Below, one piece after another: positions 2,982-49,789 of a stretch of 64,000 bases of DNA (positions are counted from its first letter, which is position 1; each line of letters starts with the position of its first letter). The translations under genes were made by a program, and so were the position numbers. The notes beneath the pieces were generated by a model. The model saw nothing but the letters and a program-made list of their open reading frames with translations, was not told the DNA's origin and made no database searches. Origin of the DNA: Periplaneta americana (taxonomy: Eukaryota > Arthropoda > Insecta > Blattodea > Blattidae); assembly GCF_040183065.1 (NCBI RefSeq), contig NW_027185499.1:1612001-1676000 (forward strand), in the 5' to 3' direction.

Positions 2982-3180
2982 TTAGTATGACTTGAGGCTT
3001 TCCCGGCGTTTGATATAGAATAACTCTTCTTGGGTTCTCAGCCAGGTGAGTTGGAGATTAGATTCCAATCTTTCGATGGCTAGCTCTGCCATCTTCTTCA
3101 GGGAAGAAGTGCATGTATGAGGGATTATGTGGTTGGAGTTGTAGGAAAATGGACGACGTAGGTATATAGGCCTAATGACG
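2982..3180 (-). mobile_element. Penelope-type terminal-repeat fragment with ribozyme-like motif
   Basis: Read on the minus strand, this holds CTGAAGAA-GATGGC-agagcta-GCCATC-GAAAG (3101 to 3070), a perfectly paired 6-bp stem between the two conserved boxes. About 70 bases further on is a tail GCCGGGAAAGCCTCAAG (near 3005-2990). Similar tails end the palindromic insertions at 44.1 and 49.7 kb (GCCGTGGAAGCCTACG and GCCGTGAAAGCCTGC). Shared boxes plus shared tail suggest a common source in Penelope-like element terminal repeats. No coding part or second arm is present here. Boundaries are approximate. Confidence 0.45.
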
Positions 3181-20722: not shown

Positions 20723-21064
20723 GAATAATTTCAAGGGGAAATTGTTCCGGGGCCGGGTATCGATCCCAGGACCTCTGGTTGAACGTACCAGCGCTCTACC
20801 ACTGAGCTACCCGGGAACTCCACTCGACACCGTCTCAACCTTTCCCTTTATATCCACACAACTCGCATGGGCTGATGAAACGCCAGAGACCCACAACGAG
20901 TACACACAAGCTCTGTGTGACTTGGAATTGTGGTTTTCTGTTAACGTACACAGTAACGTATATATTATGCAAATCTAGTCTTTCAGGTGAAGCTCCCTGT
21001 AAAGCAGATTTGAATAATTTCAATTCTGCTTTACAGGGAGCTTCACCTGAAAGACTAGATTTGC
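20723..21064 (+). mobile_element. tRNA-related SINE-1 with terminal hairpin and 14-bp target duplication
   Basis: ATAAATGTAGTATG flanks the insertion at 20709-20722 and 21065-21078. The head starts AATAATTTCAAGGGGAAATT and contains, on the minus strand, a tRNA-like A box (TAGCTCAGTGGTAGAGC) and B box (GGATCGATACC). The tail forms a near-perfect hairpin: GCAAATCTAGTCTTTCAGG (from about 20969) is mirrored by the reverse complement ending near 21064, with a loop around 21010-21024 that repeats the head motif TTGAATAATTTCAA. This looks like a partial inverted second SINE copy joined at the tail. A related copy is split at 25782-28870. Confidence 0.8.
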
Positions 21065-21399
21065 ATAAATGTAGTATGTCTATAGCAGCTGTGCCCAATA
21101 CTAAAGTTTCAAACTTAAAATTAAAAAAAAATATTTGAACAGACCTGTATTATTAATTAATATAAATTACAATAATCACTAATTAGCAAGACATTTATGT
21201 AAATAATTTATTATTGGACGATGTCTGTGGCCCTCCAATAATATATTTTTTTTAATATTGGCCCGCAGTATTCATAAGGTTGAGCATCCCTGGTCTATAG
21301 ACTAAAGAGAGACGAACAGAGGAGATGATAATGAAATCAGTAACATTCCTCATACCCGCAATGGTAAAAACAATGAAATAACAAATTTCTGTAGAATAT

Positions 21400-22267
21400 A
21401 ATATAACATAAATATTTATTTTTTATTCAGACTAAATGACTTATCAGTGTTTTAAAGAAGATCAATAAAATTTATAAAATATATATTCATTGAAGTTGAG
21501 GTTAAAATAATGCTAACGTTTTGCGCCTATTGGCATCTTCAGGCACTTGAGCCAACAATATCATGTGATACATTAATTTACAGTAAAAGGCATGGCTGTT
21601 GAATATATACATTAATCAATCTTAAAACTAACAGATTAAAATCATTTGTGCAAATTAAATGATAAACTATAGTTGAGTTAATTATTGTTTTGATATGTAT
21701 GATAGTTGAATTAATTATCCTCATCTCTACTTAAATTTACGACAATAATTAAAACAACTATAGGACACAAAGATTAAATTGTAGATTTAAAATGGATTCA
21801 AATAAAATAAAATATTACCTTGTAATAAAAATTGATTACTTCTATAATGTCTTATTAATGCTTACATTTGATCGTATAATTTTACCAATTACTGGTATGT
21901 GCCGTTATTGATGTAATTATATGTATTATAATGATATAATCTTATGGTTCTTATTGATTCCAATATTAAACTTCATATTGAGTGGACGTCGAAATAATTT
22001 CAGATGGTTGAAACGTAGAATGCAGGTATGACTTTCAACAGGAAGTTGAGCTGTTCATGATGCAATTCGTTCTATAATATATACGTATCGTAAGTAACTA
22101 ATATAAAATATTGCTCAAATGCCTAAAGGTGGTAATAGGCGAAAACGTTAGCATTATTTTAACCTTTAACTTCAATGAATATTTATATTTATACATTTTA
22201 TTGATCTTTTTTTAAAACACTGATAAGTCATTTAGACTGAATAACAAATAAATATTTATGTTATATT
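21400..22267. mobile_element. fold-back element with about 145-bp inverted arms
   Basis: Arms 21400-21545 and 22122-22267 are inverted copies, starting AATATAACATAAATATTTATT and reading through CTAAATGACTTATCAGTGTTTT and GGTTAAAATAATGCTAACG. The inner end of the left arm has CTGAAGATGCCAATAGGCG.AAAACGTTAGC on the minus strand, one of the ribozyme-like motifs. The right arm has a degraded version on the plus strand. The central 570 bp is AT-rich and non-coding. It lies inside the Tc1 element. No clear target duplication was found. Confidence 0.7.
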
Positions 22268-22539
22268 GTATTGTATATTGACTTATCTGAAAATTACTAC
22301 TACAATGCTTACTAAGAAAATTTTTGTAGGCCTATGTCGACAAGAACACAAGAGTTTCAACCTTATGGAATGTGAACAGAAACAGTCCGAAATCCTCTCC
22401 TTCCGAGACCAGCAACGTTGGGGGGGAGTAAACAGTATCCCTCTTAGATACTCTGTACTGTGATAATTACAAAAAAACCGGCGTAAGTAACATTACGAGT
22501 TTTGCTGCTCATCGGCCAGATTTTTCTTCTGTGACTGTA

Positions 22540-24309: not shown

Positions 24310-25140
24310 ACTACATATGCACATTCTTCCTGTCTGTCCTATGTAAAAATGTGGACAACTATTGCATTTTAGTTTGTAAGCCCCAGTTGAATTATATTTA
24401 TTTGAATGTTTGATGTGATTATTTAGATATTTCTGTGTTGTGTTTTTGTTTTGTACCTATGCTATCTTGTGTTTTAGTTTTCTGAATGACGTTGCAATTT
24501 TGTAAGTATTGATATTGTGATATGTTAATGTTATGTATTTATTCTCACGCGGTGTTTGTGTTGGTTTGTTCTGTTTTTGTTTTGTCTTTTTTATTAGTGT
24601 ATCTATCATGTTAGGATTATATCCATTGTCTTGTGCTATATATTTTATTGTGTTTAGTTCTTCAGTATAGTTGTCATTGTTCATAGGTATGTTAAATATT
24701 AATCTGTATGTCATTGTATGGAAAGCTGCATGTTTATGTTGTATAGGATAGTTCGATGAATTCTGTATGTGTGTTGTAGTTGTGGTTTCCTGTATATTTT
24801 GAATTCATGTCTATTATTTGTTTTGGTTATGGTGATGTCTAAGAAATTTATAGCTTGGTTATGTTCTGTTTCTATTGTATACTTTAATTTGAGATGTATT
24901 TTGTTGAGTTGTTGATGTAGGTTTTCTATTTGTCTTTTGTTTCCATTATATAGGACTATTATGTCATCTACATATCGATGCCAGTACATTATTCTCTCTG
25001 CGTGTTTGTTGTTGTCAGTGTTTAGTATGTGTGTTTGTTCTATATTATGAATGAAGATTTCAGCTAATGTACTTGATATAGGTGAACCCATTGGTAATCC
25101 TTCAGTTTGTGTATAATATTTATTGTTATGTGTGAAATAA
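24310..25140 (-). pseudogene. Penelope-like element: RT core and GIY-YIG fragment
   Basis: Minus strand from about 25140: GLPMGSPISSTLAEIFIHNI (RT motif with MGSP.S...AE), then YWHRYVDDIIVLY with the catalytic YVDD, INFLDITI and KIYRKP. A frameshift near 24780 leads to HAAFHTMTYRLIFNIP and YTEELNTIKYIAQDNGYN. An in-frame TAG (about 24460) follows, then STGAYKLKCNSCPHFYIGQT, a GIY-YIG nuclease motif. RT followed by GIY-YIG is the hallmark of Penelope-like elements, which use telomerase-like RT with a homing-type nuclease. The N-terminal half of the RT is missing: at about 25140 the sequence changes abruptly into LINE-A endonuclease on the same strand. Confidence 0.85.
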
Positions 25141-25771
25141 TTTTGTTTTGTAATAATCTTTCTTTAATGTTTCTAAATCTTTTGTCCAGAAAGGTTTGTA
25201 GTTTGGGATCTTTCCTCGGGGCACCCATTTCTTTGCTGCTTTTAGCATAGTTGCACAAATTATGTCCTTACATTTGTCTGGGGATTCGTTCATATTAATG
25301 GAGAGGTTATTTTCTAGATCTTCTCTAAATTTAGTCCAATTGGATTTTTTAAAATTCCAAGAACATCTGTTATAAGATTTGTTTGTAGGTTTCTGATGTA
25401 GTAAAATAGAAGTAGCAATGATTTTGTGGCCAAGTCCAGGGTCTTCCAGAACTTTCCTGCTTGCCTTGTTATATATGTCTGAAGATATTAGAGTTAAATC
25501 TGGATTAGATGTTCCATGGGAATGAAGATATGTTGGAGGGTCTTCTGGGTTGAATAATAATTGGATTGATTGGGTGTTAAGAAAATCTTCTATTGAATGG
25601 CCAACAGAATTGATGCCTAAATATCCCCATTCTTTAGAATGACCACTGAAGTCTCCAATTATGAGAGTCTTTGGTGTAACTACTATATTGTCCAATTTGG
25701 GTTTGTTATTAGGGGGTTATATATGCTATACATTTTGAAGTGTTATTTATCCGAAGTTCTATTTTACAAAT
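25141..25771 (-). pseudogene. LINE-A endonuclease, C-terminal part
   Basis: The minus-strand frame 25695 to about 25140 contains TLIIGDFSGHSKEWGYLGIN, HSHGTSNPDLTLIS and CSWNFKKSNWTKF. These are the GDFN.H...WG and SNPDL motifs of APE-type LINE endonucleases, followed by the linker to RT. Upstream after a frameshift, SEICKIELRI reaches the SINE insertion at 25772. The first half of the same endonuclease is at 28881-29229. Downstream, the expected RT is replaced by a Penelope-like RT. Confidence 0.8.
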
Positions 25772-35647: not shown

Positions 35648-36090
35648 TAGGATTGAAGTGTGCGTCAGTTCAATGCAGAAGCAAAATCCATTCTCTGTAA
35701 TATAAAAAATGAGGCTAAAAAGAATAAATTCATTAAGGGATACATGAGAAAATTAAAAAACAAAAAATAAAAAGTTTACTGGTACAACTCTCGCAAAAGA
35801 TTTGACAACCTCGCAACTGTTGAGATTTAAAACGCAGGTACTGGTTCCTGGTCAGGCATAAGTCCACTTGCAAAACATTTCTCTCTGTCAGTCGTTCGCT
35901 CGCCAATAGGTGCTTGTAGTGAATCTCTTTGTGTTCCTCTAGGGAAGTTTTATGTATAGATATTCAGTGATAGCATTTATAAGTGTGTGCATGTATTATT
36001 ATGAATATTATTGATTATAATAATTTGAATTACTAATGTAATCATAATTAATTTTTACCTGAAGGGAATATTGATAATGTGACATAATTA
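35648..36090. other. no gene recognised
   Basis: A-rich around 35700-35775, then AT-rich. No feature that I can support. Confidence 0.4.
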
Positions 36091-36094
36091 GGAA

Positions 36095-36366
36095 TATTAA
36101 ATCCAGACGTTTGAGATGAGCAGGCTATGTAGCACGTATGAGCGAACCCAGAAATGCATATAGAGTGTTATTTCGGAGGCTGGAGAGAGAAAGATCTTTG
36201 GGGAGACCGAGACGTAGATGGGAGGATAATATAAAAAATGGATTTGAGGGAGGTGGGATATGATGGTAGAGACTGGATTAATCTTGTTCAGGATAGGGAT
36301 CGATGGCGGGCTTATGTGAGGGCAGCAATGAACCTCCGGGTTCCTTAAAAGCCATTTGTAAGTAAG
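36095..36366 (+). pseudogene. LINE-D 3' end
   Basis: Plus-strand fragments, with indels, correspond to the C-terminal stretch seen more clearly at 47195-47595: a RRLRWAGHV-like start, RNAYRVL, LGRPRRRWEDNI, REVGYDGRDWIN, RWRAYVRAAMNL. It ends with a stop and AAGCCATTTGTAAGTAAG, a short GTAA-repeat tail as in RTE-type LINEs. LINE-A's 3' end abuts this tail in opposite orientation. Confidence 0.7.
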
Positions 36367-38088: not shown

Positions 38089-39215
38089 CGAGGCCTGTCT
38101 AAAAAGTATCCGACCTTTAGCCAGAAAAAATATTTCAAACACCTGACGGGGTTGGGACCCTAATCCCCTTCAAAGTAGGCCCCTTGTGCTTGCACACACT
38201 TAGCCCATCGATCCTTCCACTGCCGGAATCACCTCTGGAAGTCTTCTTTTGGAATGGTGTTCAGCTTCGTCGTCGCGTTCCGCATTATCTCTTCTCTACT
38301 CTCAAAACGGAATCCTTTCAGTGGTGTCTTCAATTTTGGAAACAACCAGAAGTCGCAAGGAGCCAGGTCTGGAGAGTAGGGAGGTTGGCGAACGGTTGTA
38401 ATTCCATGTTTGGCCAAGAAAGTGTGGATCAATTGGGATGAATGTGCGGGGGCGTTGTCGTGATGCAAGTGCCAGTTGTTCGCCGTCCACATGTCTGGTC
38501 TTTTGCGCCGAACTGCATCACGGAGTCGCCGGAGAACATCGTGATAGTACTCCTTTGTCACCGTTTGTCCTTCCGGTGCGTATTCGTGATGCACAATTCC
38601 ACGGACATCAAAGAAAACAGTCAGCATCACCTTGATTTTGCTTCGCACCTGCTGCGCTTTCTTCGGCCTTGGAGACTCGGGATGCTTCCATTGCGACGAC
38701 TGTCTTTTTGTTTCTGGGTCGTACCCGTACACCCATGACTCATCTCCAGTTATCACGATGTTCAGAAACCCAGGATCAGTGTTGGCGGTGTCCAGAAGGT
38801 CCTGTGCAACGTCACGACGGAGGTCTTTTTGTTCCGGGGACAACAACTTGGGCACGAATTTCGCAGCCACTCGGTTCATGTTCAAATCATCACGCAAAAT
38901 TGCATGTGCAGAATCTTTACTCACTCCAATCTCTTCGGCAATCTCCCGCATGGTCAAACGACGATCTGCCATCACCAAATTTCGCACCCTCTCAACAACG
39001 GCTCCACTCCGAACAGTTTGGGGCCTGCCACAATGCTGCTCACTCTCCGCTGATGTGCGGCCATCTTTGAGTCGGTTGAACCACTCCATAATTTGTGTTA
39101 CACCCATCACATCTTCCCCAAACACCTGCTGAATCTTACGAATTGTTTGACTTTGAGAATCACCAAGCTTTAGACAAAATTTGATGCAGTATCTTTGCTC
39201 AATTCGTTCAGTCAT
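38089..39215 (-). pseudogene. mariner transposase, near-intact with one premature stop
   Basis: A 328-codon frame opens at 39215 (MTERIEQRYCIKFCLKLG). It has an N-terminal helix-turn-helix pair (TIRKIQQVFGEDVMG...WFNRLKDGR; LTMREIAEEIGVSK), then ITGDESWVYGYDPE, LHHDNAPAHSS and YSPDLAPCDFWLF. Spacing between the last two Asp is 34, so DD34D. TGA at 38229-38231 replaces a codon before FRQWKDRW; the same frame continues through a normal mariner end (GAYFEGD) to TAG at 38160-38162, giving about 351 residues without the stop. The left terminal repeat CGAGGCCTGTCTAAAAAGTA begins at 38089 after TA. No matching right repeat is seen after 39215, so the 5' end is lost. Dense antisense frames on the plus strand are shadows. 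Confidence 0.93.
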
Positions 39216-43898: not shown

Positions 43899-43913
43899 CA
43901 ATATGTATCTTTG

Positions 43914-44138
43914 GTGTGTGGATAAGCTTTAGGGCTTCTACCGCGTTGTCTTGGTGTTATTGGCTGACGTTTCGACTGCTGTGTTGTGGTCATCTTCAGA
44001 GCAGAGCATCCAACAACTGCTCTGAAGATGACCACAACACAGCAGTCGAAACGTCAGCCAATAACACCAAGACAACGCGGTAGAAGCCCTGAAGCTTATC
44101 CACACACCATGTACACCAGCCGTGGAAGCCTACGCAAA
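43914..44138. mobile_element. 225-bp palindromic Penelope-type insertion with 15-bp target duplication
   Basis: CAATATGTATCTTTG flanks it at 43899-43913 and 44139-44153. The arms are 91-bp, nearly perfect inverted copies (43914-44004 and 44017-44107) with a 12-base loop. Each arm carries CTGAAGAT-GAC-...-GTC-GAAACGTC (minus 43999-43966; plus 44022-44055). After the right arm comes a one-sided tail (44108-44138) with GCCGTGGAAGCCTACG. This is the architecture of the larger insertion at 48517-49764, including the tail and a long target duplication. I infer a short Penelope-like terminal-repeat derivative. The antisense frames across it are by-products. Confidence 0.75.
44022..44055 (+). ncRNA. 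hammerhead-like motif in small palindrome, right arm
   Basis: CTGAAGAT-GAC-cacaacacagca-GTC-GAAACGTC. The stem is GAC/GTC where the 49.6-kb copy has GTCT/AGAC: different bases, same pairing. The mirror copy is on the minus strand at 43999-43966. Confidence 0.45.
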
Positions 44139-44158
44139 CAATATGTATCTTTGTTCTA

Positions 44159-45230
44159 CGAGGGCTATTCATAAAGTAACCGTTTATTTCTTACAAACCT
44201 GTGAATGACGTTACAGAATTGGGTTACAATACGTTTGAAATTGTACACTCTAATTTATTTTTCCACACAGTTCCCAGTCACATTGAGACACTTGTCATAG
44301 CGTTTGACGAGCTTTGAAATTCTGCAATCGTAGAATTCGGCCAACTTACGACGCTGGTTTTCAACTCTTCGTCATCGTCAAAGCACTTCGAGCCAAGCCA
44401 CGTCTTCATATGCATGAAGAGATGGTAATCGCTAGGCACCAAATCTGGGCTATAGGGAGGATGATCCAATACTTCCCAGTTGAACTCTTGCAGTTTGGTC
44501 GCATTACGACGCACTGTATGCAGCCGGGCGTTGCCATGCAGGAAAATCACCCCAGAGCTCAACATGCCACGACGTTTGTTTTGAATGGCCCTTTTCAAGT
44601 TTGTTAGTGTGTTACAGTAACACTCAGCGTTAATTGTGGCATTCCTCTCCAAGAACTCCACTAGCAAAATTCCTTTTCTGAACCAGAACACAGTTGCCAT
44701 AGGTTTCCTCGTGGAAAGTGTTTGACGACACTTTGTGGGTTTTTTCGGGGAGTGAGTATGGTCCCACTGCATTGATTGAAGCTTTGTTTCTGCATTCACA
44801 TACGCACCCAAGTCTCATCTCCTGTCACAATCTGATCGAGAAAAGCATCGCCTTCTCTTTTGTAACGCTCAAGAAAGGACAGTGCTGCTCCCATTCGCTG
44901 AGCCTTTTGTTCCTCAGAAAGAAGTTTAGGCACTTATCTGGCAGAAAGTTTCCAGTAGCCCAAATCTTTGGTAATCATTTTGTACAGAAGAGTACGACTA
45001 AACTGTGGAAAATCCCCACTCAGCTCTGACATGGGAAATCTGCGGTTTGCTCTAACCTTTTCGTCAACCAAACGAATCAGATCTGCATTCACGATACTCG
45101 GTCGACCACTTCTCTCTTCATCATGGACATTGGTTTGCCCATTTTTGAACATACAGCACCATCCAATTTTTAACAGTCTCCCGACTTCCGCATTTCTCTT
45201 CTCTTTGAGCCTTTTTCTACCTTATTTTTA
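44159..45230 (-). pseudogene. second mariner transposase, decayed
   Basis: The left terminal repeat CGAGGGCTATTCATAAAGTA starts at 44159 after TA. Minus-strand gene: CMFKNGQTNVHDEERSGRPS, LVDEKVRANRRFPMSELS, a TAA at 44934-44936 within SAR-VPKLL, then FLDQIVTGDETW (first Asp). A one-base loss near 44815 leads into the 177-codon frame with QWDHTHSPKK, IFLHGNARLHT (second Asp changed to Gly) and HPPYSPDLVPSDYHLF (third Asp). No right terminal repeat is seen, so the 5' end is missing as in the 38-kb mariner. Different subfamily from that one. The palindromic insertion ends five bases outside the element. Confidence 0.88.
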
Positions 45231-45394
45231 CATAATGTAAAAATTAATTGAAACATTTAATTTTCACATAGTTGAAGGTGATTTATATGATGGATTCTGT
45301 TGTTCCAGAGATGGACTGAAATGTGCAGCTAAGCTTATACAAAGAGTGTTTTCTTTTATGAACAGTAAGTGAACATATATATACATACATTCAT

Positions 45395-45640
45395 ATATGA
45401 GGTCTCACCAACCTCATTAAATAATCGAGACTACTATTTTTTGTTAGTAGTCAACATGTAGATACCTATTAATTTTGAGAAAAATTCGTTCTAGCACCGG
45501 GAATCGAACCCAGGACCTCTCAACTCTGCGTGCTGAGCGCTCTTTCCAACTGAGCTATGCCGTGACACAATCCATGGTGCCAGCCAAACTCTCCTCATTA
45601 TATCATCAATGGCCTGCTACCTGCATTTTAGACATACACT
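45395..45640 (-). mobile_element. tRNA-headed SINE-2
   Basis: Minus strand: TAGCTCAGTTGGAAAGAGCG (A box) and GGGTTCGATTCCCGG (B box, 45503-45517) with tRNA-like spacing, a variable part TCAGCACGCAGAGTTGAGAG, then the 3' part CGAATTTTTCTCAAAATTAA. The first nine tRNA pairs cannot be closed, so it is a SINE head rather than a tRNA gene. A related fragment is at 39606. TATGAGGTCTC-type modules flank it at 45399 and 45736. Confidence 0.75.
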
Positions 45641-45759
45641 GGTAAGTCATATATGCAGGAGCACATATTTAAATGACTTTATGGCCAATTTTAACAAGCT
45701 TGTTAACATTGATATACCTATACTCACATATGAAGTCTCGCAATCCTCAGATGTCCGAA

Positions 45760-46109
45760 AAAGGAGCGCGACACTTTAATCAAATCAGAACTGCAAATCA
45801 CAGTCAACTTCAATTACTCATGTAGGAAATTTTTACAATTTGTTTGAAACTATTACGCTAGGTAAAATATCTCAAAATACTTTAATTTAAGCCTAACTGC
45901 CAAAATGTAGAATAAAATTGTTTTTAGTGCCGCTAACTGAATTGAATAATTTTTCAATTTTTTAGGTGAAATATTGTAGACCACTTAGTCTCCCATATTT
46001 TCTTCAAAAACAGTTGGCAACCATAGCACCAATACTATTTCTACCCAAGTCTTCAACAGAAATCAGAGTGAAAATTCCATGTGCTTGTGTAATGCTCATA
46101 CATGTTTTC
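45760..46109. other. no gene recognised
   Basis: The plus frame 45966-46151 is antisense to the PIF/Harbinger remnant and has no motif of its own. Confidence 0.35.
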
Positions 46110-46330
46110 CATCTATTAGGAATATTCACAATTTGTCGCATCTTCAAATAATTCTTTCGACATTCTGTAATATTCTGTGAATTTATCTGGATGCTGTGCT
46201 AACTCTACCAATAAAACATTACAAGCACCACGATTTTCAACCAATGAATCCAAAACCTACACCTTTATCTTCGCATTCTTATTATTGCCTATAGCAGGAG
46301 ATCATCATCTGATGACTCCATACTGAACGA
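46110..46330 (-). pseudogene. PIF/Harbinger transposase, N-terminal fragment
   Basis: Minus strand from about 46323: MESSDDDLLL, a stop, then AII.RMRR and FWIHWL, then after a frameshift ENRGACNVLLVELAQHPDKF and TEYYRMSKELFED. This is the acidic start, basic patch with (Y/F)W(V/I)HPL, and L..EL..dp.kF..yfRMs...F motif of PIF/Harbinger nucleases. The catalytic domain does not follow. TGAT/GTGTCACG-rich DNA upstream may be element end, not resolved. Confidence 0.5.
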
Positions 46331-46572
46331 CTCATTACATCAAATAACATGGCGTTATGTGTCACGCTCCATGTGCCATGCATCATGTTTCTTGCATCAC
46401 CCGATGTGTAACGTGCCTAATCGATTTTATTCAAGTTGCGCACCCAAATTATAAAGTACAGCCCACATAGGAATGCAGCAGGTTTACAGCATGAGCTTCA
46501 TCTGGTTGTAGTGTAATGTTTACTTTTCAGAATGTTACATATTTTCAAATACGAATGTTGTACTTATATTGT

Positions 46573-47010
46573 ACAGGTGATATATTGTTGTTGGTCCAGT
46601 GTCTAGGCACTTGACAATAAGTCAATCGCTGTCTTGCACTCCAATATTTTTCTATGATGTTATCTTGTTCTAGCAATGCTTTGCATCCCTGGACATGTTT
46701 CACGTTCATTTCTTCATTTGCATCACACAATACACGGGCTGAAGTATAAGAAATTCCTATCCTGTGCAGGTGGCTTGTCAAACAATCGTGACATGACTTG
46801 TTATCAACCTGATTTATGAGGCCCTTGAGGGATTATCTTGGGGTTAACCATTCAAAATTTCCTGGTAGTATCATTTGCTCCATCCAAATTTTATTGTTTT
46901 GGGCAGATCTGAATTTACTTCTGATTAGTTGTTTTACAGAATAATTGTTATTGAATTGTTGTAAAATTTCAGTTTTCTTTTTAGCCAAAAGTCTACTGTT
47001 TCATTTCTTT
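46573..47010 (-). pseudogene. 3' end of a LINE related to LINE-A
   Basis: The minus-strand frame (46781-46545) TSHLHRIGISYTSARVLCDA, NEEMNVKHV, CKALLEQDNIIEKYWSARQR is clearly homologous to LINE-A's HDCLAKHLHRIGIYQSPNCP ... DNIFEKYWSARG but diverged, so it is a sister family. The 3' end GTGATATATTGTTGTTGG is at about 46573. The upstream part (to about 47010) matches the linker only loosely. Confidence 0.7.
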
Positions 47011-47189
47011 CATGTCACAATGGGAAGGAAACAACTATTTTTTTTCTGTAGTTTAGTTAGATAACGCATCTTTTTTAAATCTTGTAGGCTATTTTAGCCT
47101 TTTTCGTGATCTGTTGTAAGATTATAGTCTGTATGGCTGCCCTTCAATCTGATAATTAGAATTTATTTACTCTTTCTTACTTACTTACT

Positions 47190-47670
47190 GGCTTTTAAGG
47201 AACCTGGAGGTTCATTGCCACCCTCACATAAGCCCGCCATTGGTCCCTATCCTGAGCAAGATTAATCCAGTCTCTATCATCATATCCCACCTCCCTCAAA
47301 TCCATTTTAATATTATCTTCCCATATATGTCTCGGCCTACCCAAAGGTCTTTTTCCCTCCGGTCTCCCAACTAACACTCTATATGCATTTCTGATTCGCC
47401 CATATGTGATACATGCCCTGCCCATCTCAAACGTCTGGATTTAATGTTGCTGATTATGTCAGGTGAAGAATACAATGCGTGCAGCTCTGCGTTGTGTAAC
47501 TTTCTCCATTCTCCTGTAACTTCATCCCTCTTCACCCCAAATATTTTCCTAAGAACCTTATTCTCAAACACCCTTAATCTGTGTTCCTCTCTCAAAATGA
47601 GAGTCCAAGTTTCACAGCCATACAGAACAACCGGTAATATAACTCTTCATAAATTCTAACTTTCAGATTT
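47190..47670 (-). pseudogene. LINE-D 3' end with GTAA tail
   Basis: Minus-strand frames: LREEHRLRVFENKVLRKIFG, VTGEWRKLHNAELHALYSSP, NIKSRRLRWAGHVSHMGES, then, after a frameshift near 47400, RNAYRVLVGRPEGKRPLGRP, HIWEDNIKMDLREVGYDDRD and WRAYVRVAMNL. These are the post-RT domain and C-terminus of an RTE-like LINE. The tail is (TTAC)n on the plus strand (47172-47191), i.e. GTAA repeats. It gives the clearest reading of the family. Confidence 0.85.
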
Positions 47671-47828
47671 TTTGACAGCATACTATATGACAAAAGCTTC
47701 TCAACCGAATATATTAACAGGCATTTCCCATATTTATTCTGCGTTTAATTTCCTCCCCAGTGTCATTTATATTTGTTACTGTATTTATTTAATCTATATA
47801 AGAGATTTTGCAAACATATATGTAAATA

Positions 47829-48043
47829 GACAGAAATCCATATAGAGTGTTAGTTGTGAGACCAGAGGGAAAAAACCTTTGGTGAGGCCGAGACATAGAT
47901 GGGGGGATAACATTAAAATGGATTTGAAGGAGGTGAGATATGATGGTAGAGACTGGATTAATCTTGCTCAGGATAGAGATTGATGGCATGCTTATGTGAG
48001 GGCGGCAATGAACCTCCAGGTTCTCTAAAAGCCATTTGTAAGT
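47829..48043 (+). pseudogene. LINE-D 3' end, short copy
   Basis: The plus strand repeats the last about 210 bases of LINE-D (GGGGATAACATTAAAATGGA, GATATGATGGTAGAGACTGG, GGCAATGAACCTCCAGGTTC) with indels, and ends AAGCCATTTGTAAGTAA. 5'-truncated. Confidence 0.8.
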
Positions 48044-48059
48044 AATATGTAAATAGCAG

Positions 48060-48500
48060 TAACTTAAAAATTTGTTGTATATTCTCTGACAGAATAGTAA
48101 AATGAAAAGGCAGGACATATTCATCCCAGTTTCTGCACCTTTGAATATGATATAAGAGATTCATCCGTATAAATTTGTCAACACTCCATACGTGTGTATC
48201 TTGTCTCAATTGTTTCTATAGCCATAATCTTCAAACCTAGTTTATCTGAAGCCTACGTATAATATTTGTTTGTAGTTTATAGACATTATTTCAATAGTTT
48301 CTTTAAAGCTGTGATGATATGTACTGAAAACTCACTTTACAACATTTTTTGGTGTGTTAAAATTGCATTAATATTACTGCCAGGATACAAACGAACGTAT
48401 TTTTCATACTTGTTAAGTGTTTCGGAACCCTACATAAGAAGTTGAATGTCTTAAGAAGTATGTGATGAAATAAAATGGTGAAGTGTTTGGCAGCGAAAAT
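48060..48500. other. no gene recognised
   Basis: AT-rich DNA between LINE-D and the Penelope-type insertion. ATATATTTTTCTTGTT at 48501-48516 is the left target duplication of the latter. Confidence 0.4.
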
Positions 48501-48570
48501 ATATATTTTTCTTGTTGAAACAGAGCTTCCGGGCTAAGATGCCGTGGTCTACTGGTGCTGACGTTACCAG

Positions 48571-48604
48571 ACGTTTCGTCTACTTCTACGGCAGACATCT
48601 TCAG
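48571..48604 (-). ncRNA. hammerhead-like motif, left arm
   Basis: Exact inverted copy of the 49642-49675 motif in the other arm of the palindrome, so the boxes and the GTCT/AGAC stem are unchanged. Confidence 0.5.
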
Positions 48605-49197
48605 TGGTTAGGTATCCTCGGTCGAAGTCTTCTGCTCGGGATACCTGTAGCAACTGATGACATGACTGGTTGCTCGTCCTTATTTATAGCGCCGAGACTT
48701 GGTGTTCCGTTGTTGCGGAGGTCCGCGTCCGTCAGATCGTGACCTTGGACTGGCCGTGGCGTTGATTGGTCGCGGCGGCTCGCACCTGCTCGGTCCCGGT
48801 GGCCTTGGGCTGGTCGTGGCGCACAGTTGTTGCGGCGGTCCGCGCTCGCTAGAGTGCGGTGGCCTTGGGCTGGTTGTTGTGTTCCAATATCGTGGCGGAC
48901 AGCACTTGCAGGATTTCGGTTTCCATCCGTCGTACCGTCGCTGTGCACAGGTTTTGTACGAGTCCGTTTCAGGACAGGATGCCAGCAGTTGTTAAGTTTC
49001 AGACCCTCTTCTTTACGGTTGAAATTGTTTGGATGTTTATGGATTTCAATCGCTTCCCTGAATAGGCGGGGGAAGTAATTGGACGTGTTACTGAGGATGT
49101 CTGTTTCTCGGAACTGTATGTCGTGCCTCCCATCCTGAAACGCATGTTCCGCCACTGCAGATTTATCCAGCTGTCCCAATCTGCAGTTCCGTTCGTT
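48601..49197 (-). pseudogene. Penelope-like C-terminal GIY-YIG-associated region, left arm
   Basis: Minus strand from the spacer: RNCRLGQLDKSAVAEHAF (the conserved E.HA helix after GIY-YIG), IQFRETDILSNTSNYFPRLF, REAIEIHKHPNNFNRKEEGL and LNNCWHPVLKR. This order (K.A.AEH....H.I.F....IL.....Y..R...EA..I..HP.N.N......L...W.P.L) is typical of the end of Penelope-like proteins. The frame continues into three 20-residue repeats (AQGH...RR....PRP) to a stop at 48601. The frame also stays open upstream across the palindrome centre to 49419, but that part is antisense of the other arm and not a real N-terminus. Confidence 0.8.
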
Positions 49198-49344
49198 GAA
49201 ATCCATAAACATCCAAACAATTTCAACCGTAAAGAAGAGGGTCTGAAACTTAACAACTGCTGGCATCCTGTCCTGAAACGGACTCGTACAAAAACCTGTG
49301 CACAGCGACGGTACGACGGATGGAAACCGAAATCCTGCGAGTGC

Positions 49345-49550
49345 TGTCCGCCACGATATTGGAACACAACAACCAGCCCAAGGCCACCGCACTCTAGCGA
49401 GCGCGGACCGCCGCAACAACTGTGCGCCACGACCAGCCCAAGGCCACCGGGACCGAGCAGGTGCGAGCCGCCGCGACCAATCAACGCCACGGCCAGTCCA
49501 AGGTCACGATCTGACGGGCGCGGACCGCCGCGACAACGGAACACCAAGTC
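49345..49550. repeat. 60-bp GC-rich minisatellite, about 3.5 units (also inverted at 48697-48900)
   Basis: Units end CCAGCCCAAGGCCAC, CCAGCCCAAGGCCAC and CCAGTCCAAGGTCAC at 60-base spacing and encode a repeated ..GHR....RR....PRP peptide. The reverse complement is present in the left arm. Confidence 0.8.
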
Positions 49551-49557
49551 TCAGCGC

Positions 49558-49565
49558 TATAAATA
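49558..49565 (+). promoter_or_regulatory. TATA-like box in Penelope terminal repeat (right arm)
   Basis: TATAAATA directly after the GC-rich repeats and about 75 bases before the ribozyme-like motif. The same box lies in the left arm on the minus strand at 48681-48688. Penelope terminal repeats are known to hold the promoter; assignment here is by position and sequence only. Confidence 0.4.
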
Positions 49566-49641
49566 AGGACGAGCAACCAGTCATGTCATCAGTTGCTACA
49601 GGTATCCCGAGCAGAAGACTTCGACCGAGGATACCTAACCA

Positions 49642-49675
49642 CTGAAGATGTCTGCCGTAGAAGTAGACGAAACGT
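49642..49675 (+). ncRNA. hammerhead-like motif, right arm
   Basis: CTGAAGAT-GTCT-gccgtagaagt-AGAC-GAAACGTC: conserved CTGAAGA and GAAAC boxes joined by a 4-bp stem. The hammerhead core is CUGANGA plus GAAA joined by helix II starting with a G-C pair; here one extra T stands between the first box and that G-C pair. The mirror copy is at 48604-48571 (minus). Penelope-like terminal repeats are known hosts of hammerhead ribozymes. Confidence 0.5.
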
Positions 49676-49789
49676 CTGGTAACGTCAGCACCAGTAGACC
49701 ACGGCATCTTAGCCCGGAAGCTCTGTTTCAACTAGACACCGGCCGTGAAAGCCTGCATGCTAAGATATATTTTTCTTGTTTTGTTTTTT

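Follow-up and report, generated by a model that had tools for sequence, protein, structure and literature searches.

Two insertions near 44.0 kb and 48.5-49.7 kb in a stretch of 64,000 nucleotides from Periplaneta americana (contig NW_027185499.1, hereafter the window) carry a short conserved motif which is very probably a minimal hammerhead ribozyme of the dimer type (type I), belonging to Penelope-like retroelements (PLEs) and predicted from its sequence to cleave itself. Hammerheads of this kind are already known from PLEs, and the window adds new examples, not a new kind of ribozyme. The assignment is based on the sequence and its compatibility with the hammerhead structure as well as on target site duplications (TSDs), tails, the layout of the open reading frame (ORF) and the insertion ends, all of which are observed in the window. 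The sites are clean examples of PLE hammerheads for which both ends of the insertion are defined, and they join three published facts: the overlap of the hammerhead with the start codon, the identity of the insertion end with an internal start of reverse transcription, and the origin of the tail as the gap between two such starts.

The motif is formed by two fixed boxes, CTGAAGAT and GAAACGT, with helix II between them. Four strict sites exist in the window (Table 1; the coordinates include the cleavage base), with one per arm in a palindrome at 44.0 kb and in an inverted repeat of greater size at 48.5-49.7 kb. When the boxes are required together with at least 3 bp in helix II, the window contains 4 sites and each of 200 dinucleotide shuffles contains 0. 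Two further criteria, which were added to the motif of a first-pass annotation of this DNA, are a minimum of 3 bp in helix I and a palindromic helix III; with these the counts are again 4 in the window and 0 in 100 shuffles. The arms of the palindromes are near-identical copies, with 1 mismatch in 93 nt at 44.0 kb and with 6 in 446 nt and 0 in 98 nt at 48.5-49.7 kb, so that the four strict sites represent two independent families. The first-pass annotation had described a hammerhead-like motif at several loci; this holds for those at 44.0, 48.6 and 49.6 kb, with 4 sites against 0 in shuffles, but not in the sense that the sites are independent of each other.

The hammerhead core (CUGANGA ... 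GAA, the pair A15.1-U16.1, and H17, which is C) is matched without mismatch at all four strict sites. The one departure from the textbook core is an extra base between A9 and helix II, and the boxes thus are what they had been taken for, a hammerhead core plus one extra T. With the units aligned by hand register, the 44.0 kb unit consists of helix I GCU/AGC (3 bp), the core CUGAAGA, an extra U, helix II GAC/GUC, GAA, ACGU and C17, and the 49.6 kb unit has helix I ACCA/UGGU (4 bp), helix II GUCUGC/GUAGAC (6 bp, one of them G-U) and the helix III box ACGU. Cleavage is predicted after C44055 in the right arm at 44.0 kb and after C49676 in the right copy at 49.6 kb. A closed helix III is absent. 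As the palindrome ACGU is self-complementary, helix III is possible between two copies only, which is also how reviews portray PLE hammerheads. Partner strands are present for both outer helices, with 3-4 bp in cis for helix I and a palindrome usable between copies for helix III; their lack had been named in the first-pass annotation as a ground for refuting the motif.

The surroundings of the motif agree with the earlier suggestion that it lies in Penelope-like terminal repeats. Both insertions have TSDs, inverted head-to-head pseudo-long terminal repeats (pseudo-LTRs) and a tail of about 30 nt on one arm, and they end at +111 and +117 of an ORF. The ORF starts at 44.0 and 49.6 kb are alike (local score 30, equalled in 5 of 1000 shuffles), and a tail of the type ACC(A/G)GCCGTG(G/A)AAGCCT is common to both insertions. 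The predicted cut lies 25 nt (44.0 kb) and 26 nt (49.6 kb) past the ATG triplet, and C3 to G8 precede the ATG.

These features can be compared with PAc, a PLE of the Poseidon type from Anolis carolinensis, for which an AC-rich stem loop, located 111-118 bp into the ORF, is described as the place where reverse transcription starts, and the stretch between two such start sites as the tail (PMC11167929). In the PAc hammerhead, C3 and G8 precede the start codon, the ORF begins at stem II and the cut is placed 26 bp downstream (PMC11167929). The likeness extends to the position of the hammerhead at the junction of pseudo-LTR and ORF, to the formation of stems I and II only, and to the start of reverse transcription 111-118 bp into the ORF as against insertion ends of +111 and +117 here (PMC11167929). 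The differences lie in the host, in the cut (26 bp as against 25 nt at 44.0 kb) and in the nature of the copies, which are 5'-truncated inverted fragments in the cockroach. Penelope elements of Adineta vaga are reported to have inverted pseudo-LTRs, a 31-bp tail on one inverted pseudo-LTR, the first ORF codons inside the pseudo-LTR, and head-to-head junction palindromes that are ascribed to self-priming (PMC3846280). Their TSDs measure 8-10 bp, whereas those of the window measure 15 and 16 bp, and the hammerhead is not named in the main text of that paper, where the word "ribozyme" occurs 0 times (PMC3846280). The tails in the window, whose boundaries were set by hand, measure 29-31 and 32-35 nt as against published values of 31 bp and 30-40 bp (PMC3846280, PMC11167929). 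Minimal type I hammerheads have been described from PLEs with a helix III of a few palindromic bases (Cervera & de la Pena 2014; Lunse, Weinberg & Breaker 2017); they lie within pseudo-LTRs, as the present sites do, occur in thousands of copies in metazoan genomes and are proposed to cleave as dimers. That several independent distances match the published PLE anatomy is the strongest argument for assigning the insertions to PLEs.

Near-perfect inverted arms flanked by TSDs would also be seen if the palindromes were hairpin elements, either microRNA-like or miniature inverted-repeat transposable elements (MITEs), in which the hammerhead match is incidental. At a permissive threshold, Rfam indeed lists mostly microRNA precursor models for the 44.0 kb palindrome, all of them under their gathering scores, but such models give a score to nearly every hairpin that is long and perfect. 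A tail on a single arm, an ORF start, an end at +111/+117 and a motif shared by two unlike palindromes are not MITE features, and this explanation is extremely improbable.

Helices I and II change in sequence from family to family while their pairing is kept. With one row per family (44.0 kb, 49.6 kb, the left arm at 21.5 kb minus an inserted C, and 3.1 kb; the last two sites are described below), the three pairs counted in helix I and the three in helix II are Watson-Crick in 24 of 24 cells, and 5 of the 6 pairs vary. Permutation of the partner arms reaches full pairing in 1 of 24 arrangements per helix, which is the true one, with means of 5.5 and 8.0 of 12. For the base composition of the window, the chance of three Watson-Crick pairs in helix I is about 0.02 per site. 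The sequence of loop II varies, and the positions that are conserved are those of the hammerhead core.

This bears on the possibility that conservation of the boxes reflects not a ribozyme but the N-terminus of the PLE protein encoded there, or a DNA signal such as a promoter or an endonuclease target. The motif does overlap the start codon and the first codons, and promoters have been proposed within pseudo-LTRs (PMC3846280, PMC11167929). However, the 3' box, GAAACGTC, is read in two frames in the two sure families, as DETS at 49.6 kb and as SKR at 44.0 kb, which implies that it is conserved as nucleic acid and not as peptide. The arms of helices I and II change together, and conservation follows the hammerhead core and leaves out loop II. 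A purely coding or DNA-level role is very improbable.

Several points weigh against a PLE hammerhead. Helix II served to pick the sites and only helix I provides an independent test. At 21.5 and 3.1 kb, the length of helix III and the register of the cut were set for each site individually, and the 21.5 kb row is the one from which the inserted C was taken out. The cleanest test is therefore provided by helix I of the two strict families. The covariation is real, though based on a small number of families, two of them sure, one decayed and one probable, and the statement of the first-pass annotation that pairing is kept while sequence changes stands between families but not for a set of independent sites that are all real. 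At 44.0 kb, helix II has just 3 bp and its loop 12 nt. Rfam hammerhead families gave no match at any threshold applied. The Rfam models expect a closed helix or loop, so that the non-match weighs little, and their silence is in keeping with the lack of a closed helix III. Of a PLE reverse transcriptase and GIY-YIG endonuclease, these copies keep no more than a coding remnant in the left copy at 48.5-49.7 kb, which spans VAEHAFQDGRHD...FREAIEIHKHPNNFNRKEEG and resembles the C-terminus of such an endonuclease; Pfam gave no confirmation, with 0 families matched and DUF5884 sub-threshold at 0.15.

The hammerhead fold is not the one of lowest energy. As a monomer, the 49.6 kb unit has an alternative fold of -11.7 kcal/mol against -9.6 kcal/mol for helices I and II, and the 44.0 kb unit one of -6.6 kcal/mol against -1.5 kcal/mol. 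Dimer folds with helix III imposed reach -16.5 and -3.9 kcal/mol, and other folds score better. A transcript spanning either palindrome would form a long hairpin in which both hammerheads are buried. The unfavoured energies of the lone units agree with the weak or protein-dependent activity published for such motifs (PMC11167929), activity being predicted for the present ones. For PAc, the hammerhead depended on protein in vitro, and no excess of RNA 5' ends at its cut was found that would point to cleavage in vivo (PMC11167929).

The boxes can also be found elsewhere. A stricter pattern gave 55 box matches (in 54 genome contigs and 1 viral contig), and in 2 of these 55 prokaryotic or viral matches helix I and helix II both reach at least 3 bp, so that a single site can be imitated by chance. 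Among the matches listed for a looser pattern in viral contigs (at least 120 contigs), at least 3 bp are present in helix II for 17/120, in helix I for 2/120 and in both for 0/120. The matches in both sets look like chance matches. A protein search for relatives in viral contigs, phages and plasmids found none, and as insect DNA is scarce or lacking in these collections this absence is uninformative. A search of the PDB returned no PLE-specific match.

The extra base between A9 and helix II is present in 4 of 4 accepted families (T, T, T and A), and the window contains 0 GAAA sites without it as against 0.42 expected from shuffles. In the sure families, the extra T coincides with the T in the ATG of the PLE ORF, and the ATG at 44028 accordingly overlaps A9 and the extra T. 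The constancy of the extra base could mean that it defines a new class of hammerhead variants, all the more as the 3.1 kb site keeps an extra A though its ATG lies 3 nt further on, which suggests more than a codon effect. In chrysanthemum chlorotic mottle viroid (CChMVd), however, an extra nucleotide reportedly sits between A9 and 10.1, and a U there is said to occur naturally and to speed cleavage. For the plus-strand hammerhead of this viroid, an extra nucleotide in the catalytic core has been published (De la Pena & Flores 2001); there it is an extra A in a viroid RNA, whereas the present sites belong to PLEs, and three of their families have T and one has A. In PAc, C3 and G8 precede the start codon and stem II lies at the start codon, which implies the same extra U (PMC11167929). 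The suggestion that the variant would be new or little described is weakened by the position of the extra T in the ORF ATG, as in the PAc layout, and by the precedent in a viroid, and it is unlikely, at a very low probability, that the extra T defines a new class. A literature text search for CUGAAGAUG together with "hammerhead" found no paper, a weak negative since such sequences sit mostly in figures. If the extra base is general, it would account for the failure of standard hammerhead models to find these sites and would give a simple correction for genome searches.

On the PLE reading, the two recent insertions are 5'-truncated PLE copies that are inverted head-to-head, which gives one hammerhead per arm. 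The hammerhead straddles the start of the PLE ORF, with CUGAAG in the leader and with A9, the extra U and the first G of helix II forming AUG. As to how it might work, we propose that PLE loci would be transcribed via their pseudo-LTRs, and two hammerheads, in tandem transcripts or on two molecules, may share helix III through ACGU and cut, probably aided by the PLE protein. Cleavage would then separate the units of read-through transcripts or strip the AUG from some of them.

A more far-reaching proposal, which is doubtful as a whole, is that the extra base is constitutive in a large insect PLE lineage. A9, U10 and G10.1 would then be the AUG, cleavage would remove the start codon and the leader, the PLE protein would switch the RNA between messenger and template for reverse transcription, and the extra A at 3.1 kb, kept though the AUG there has moved, would show a catalytic role of the extra base in its own right. 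The chance that such a ribozyme-start codon composite is regulatory is modest. Reviews describe the role of PLE hammerheads as unknown, and the composite would be a testable proposal for it.

Four further sites had been listed at first pass, and they fare differently: the 21.5 kb site is real but had been misread, the 3.1 kb site is probable, the 37.9 kb site is unproven and the 39.9 kb site is rejected. The 21.5 kb site belongs to a third inverted repeat, which is older and has arms that are 89.6% identical over 164 columns; the site lies in its left arm. In the left arm, the 5' box and helix II are intact and an extra C follows G12; in the right arm at 22123, the 5' box has decayed and the second pair of helix II is broken, with helix I AUGC/GCAU. 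No TSD was found around this inverted repeat. The old inverted-repeat element as a whole spans 21392-22275, and about 120 bp of AT-rich sequence separate the hammerhead from the arm end.

The 3.1 kb site, which was at first read as chance, has a complete core and a non-palindromic helix III box, AGAU. Its ORF start resembles the one at 49.6 kb (25 of 1000 shuffles score as high) and not the one at 44.0 kb (669 of 1000). Because of its helix I, its ORF and the tail-like GCCGGGAAAGCCT, it was accepted as a probable fourth PLE hammerhead family, as judged from the sequence. A scan for core, ATG, ORF and [RK].SL finds 3 sites in the window where shuffles average 0.32, with at least 1 of 60 shuffles also reaching 3; it was devised after the sites were known and is a weak control for 3.1 kb.

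At 37.9 kb, helix II has 5 bp, G12 is changed to A, and both helix I and a palindromic helix III are missing; the site has no repeat copy within the window. As a hammerhead it is unproven, with only helix II convincing. Loose criteria give 4 sites in the window, whereas 60 shuffles average 0.33 and reach 3 at most, and one extra chance site is therefore unsurprising. At 39.9 kb, a hammerhead is ruled out by the change of the essential G8 to C.

Table 1. Features of the insertions and of the further accepted hammerhead sites (positions in the window; strand in brackets)
Feature	Position	Details
44.0 kb: TSD, left copy	43899..43913	15 bp, CAATATGTATCTTTG
44.0 kb: inverted (left) pseudo-LTR arm	43912..44004 (-)	final 2 nt within TSD
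44.0 kb: predicted minimal hammerhead, left arm (strict site)	43966..43999 (-)	core, extra T, helix II GAC/GUC, GAA, ACGU, C17
44.0 kb: direct (right) pseudo-LTR arm	44017..44109 (+)	inverted repeat
44.0 kb: predicted minimal hammerhead, right arm (strict site)	44022..44055 (+)	flanked by 3-bp helix I, UGC-type arm GCU/AGC
44.0 kb: PLE ORF, first 37 codons	44028..44138 (+)	MTTTQQSKRQP...SRGSLRK; insertion end = +111
44.0 kb: PLE tail, right arm only	44110..44138 (+)	2-nt boundary ambiguity
44.0 kb: TSD, right copy	44139..44153	15 bp
48.5-49.7 kb: TSD, left copy	48501..48516	16 bp, ATATATTTTTCTTGTT
48.5-49.7 kb: inverted (left) copy, PLE 3' part and pseudo-LTR	48510..49049 (-)	inverted repeats
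48.5-49.7 kb: predicted minimal hammerhead, left copy (strict site)	48570..48604 (-)	
48.5-49.7 kb: coding remnant, left copy	48952..49155 (-)	VAEHAFQDGRHD...FREAIEIHKHPNNFNRKEEGLKL...
48.5-49.7 kb: direct (right) copy	49196..49736 (+)	5' end cut off inside endonuclease-like coding remnant
48.5-49.7 kb: predicted minimal hammerhead, right copy (strict site)	49642..49676 (+)	
48.5-49.7 kb: PLE ORF, first 39 codons	49648..49764 (+)	MSAVEVDETSG...SPEALFQLDTGRESLHAK; insertion end = +117
48.5-49.7 kb: PLE tail, right copy only	49733..49764 (+)	3-nt boundary ambiguity
48.5-49.7 kb: TSD, right copy	49765..49780	16 bp
Decayed third-family hammerhead, left arm	21514..21542 (-)	helix I GUGC/GCAU, helix II GCC/GGC, box AACGUU
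Decayed third-family hammerhead, right arm	22123..22150 (+)	CTAAAGG core, GAAAACGTT intact
Probable fourth-family hammerhead	3067..3101 (-)	extra A, helix II GAUGGC/GCCAUC 6 bp, helix I UUCC/GGAA
3.1 kb ORF start	2982..3092 (-)	MAELAIERLESNLQLTWLRTQEELFYIKRRESLKSY with tail-like GCCGGGAAAGCCT

Another PLE-like remnant lies at 24322-25163 (-), where a fragment of a reverse transcriptase (24711-25163 (-); RVT_1 match, 5.6e-10) is followed by a thumb-like stretch and then by GAYKLKCNSCPHFYIGQTGR. The latter looks like a GIY-YIG motif, and Pfam gave nothing for this piece of 31 aa. No hammerhead was found beside the remnant.

By eye, a broken mariner-like transposase at 44278-44814 (-) adjoins the 44.0 kb PLE insertion, and an open frame of 328 codons at 38229-39215 (-) looks like a nearly intact mariner-type transposase. 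Rfam tRNA models match at 20745-20816 (-) and, weakly and in part (positions 5-66 of 71), at 45494-45560 (-). A near-perfect 50-nt palindrome with a 4-nt centre at 20965-21068 has no relation to the PLE palindromes. A repeat that probably represents the end of the ORF of a non-LTR reverse transcriptase occurs in three related copies at 36069-36354, 47189-47472 and 47831-48034, of which two share a strand and the other is inverted.

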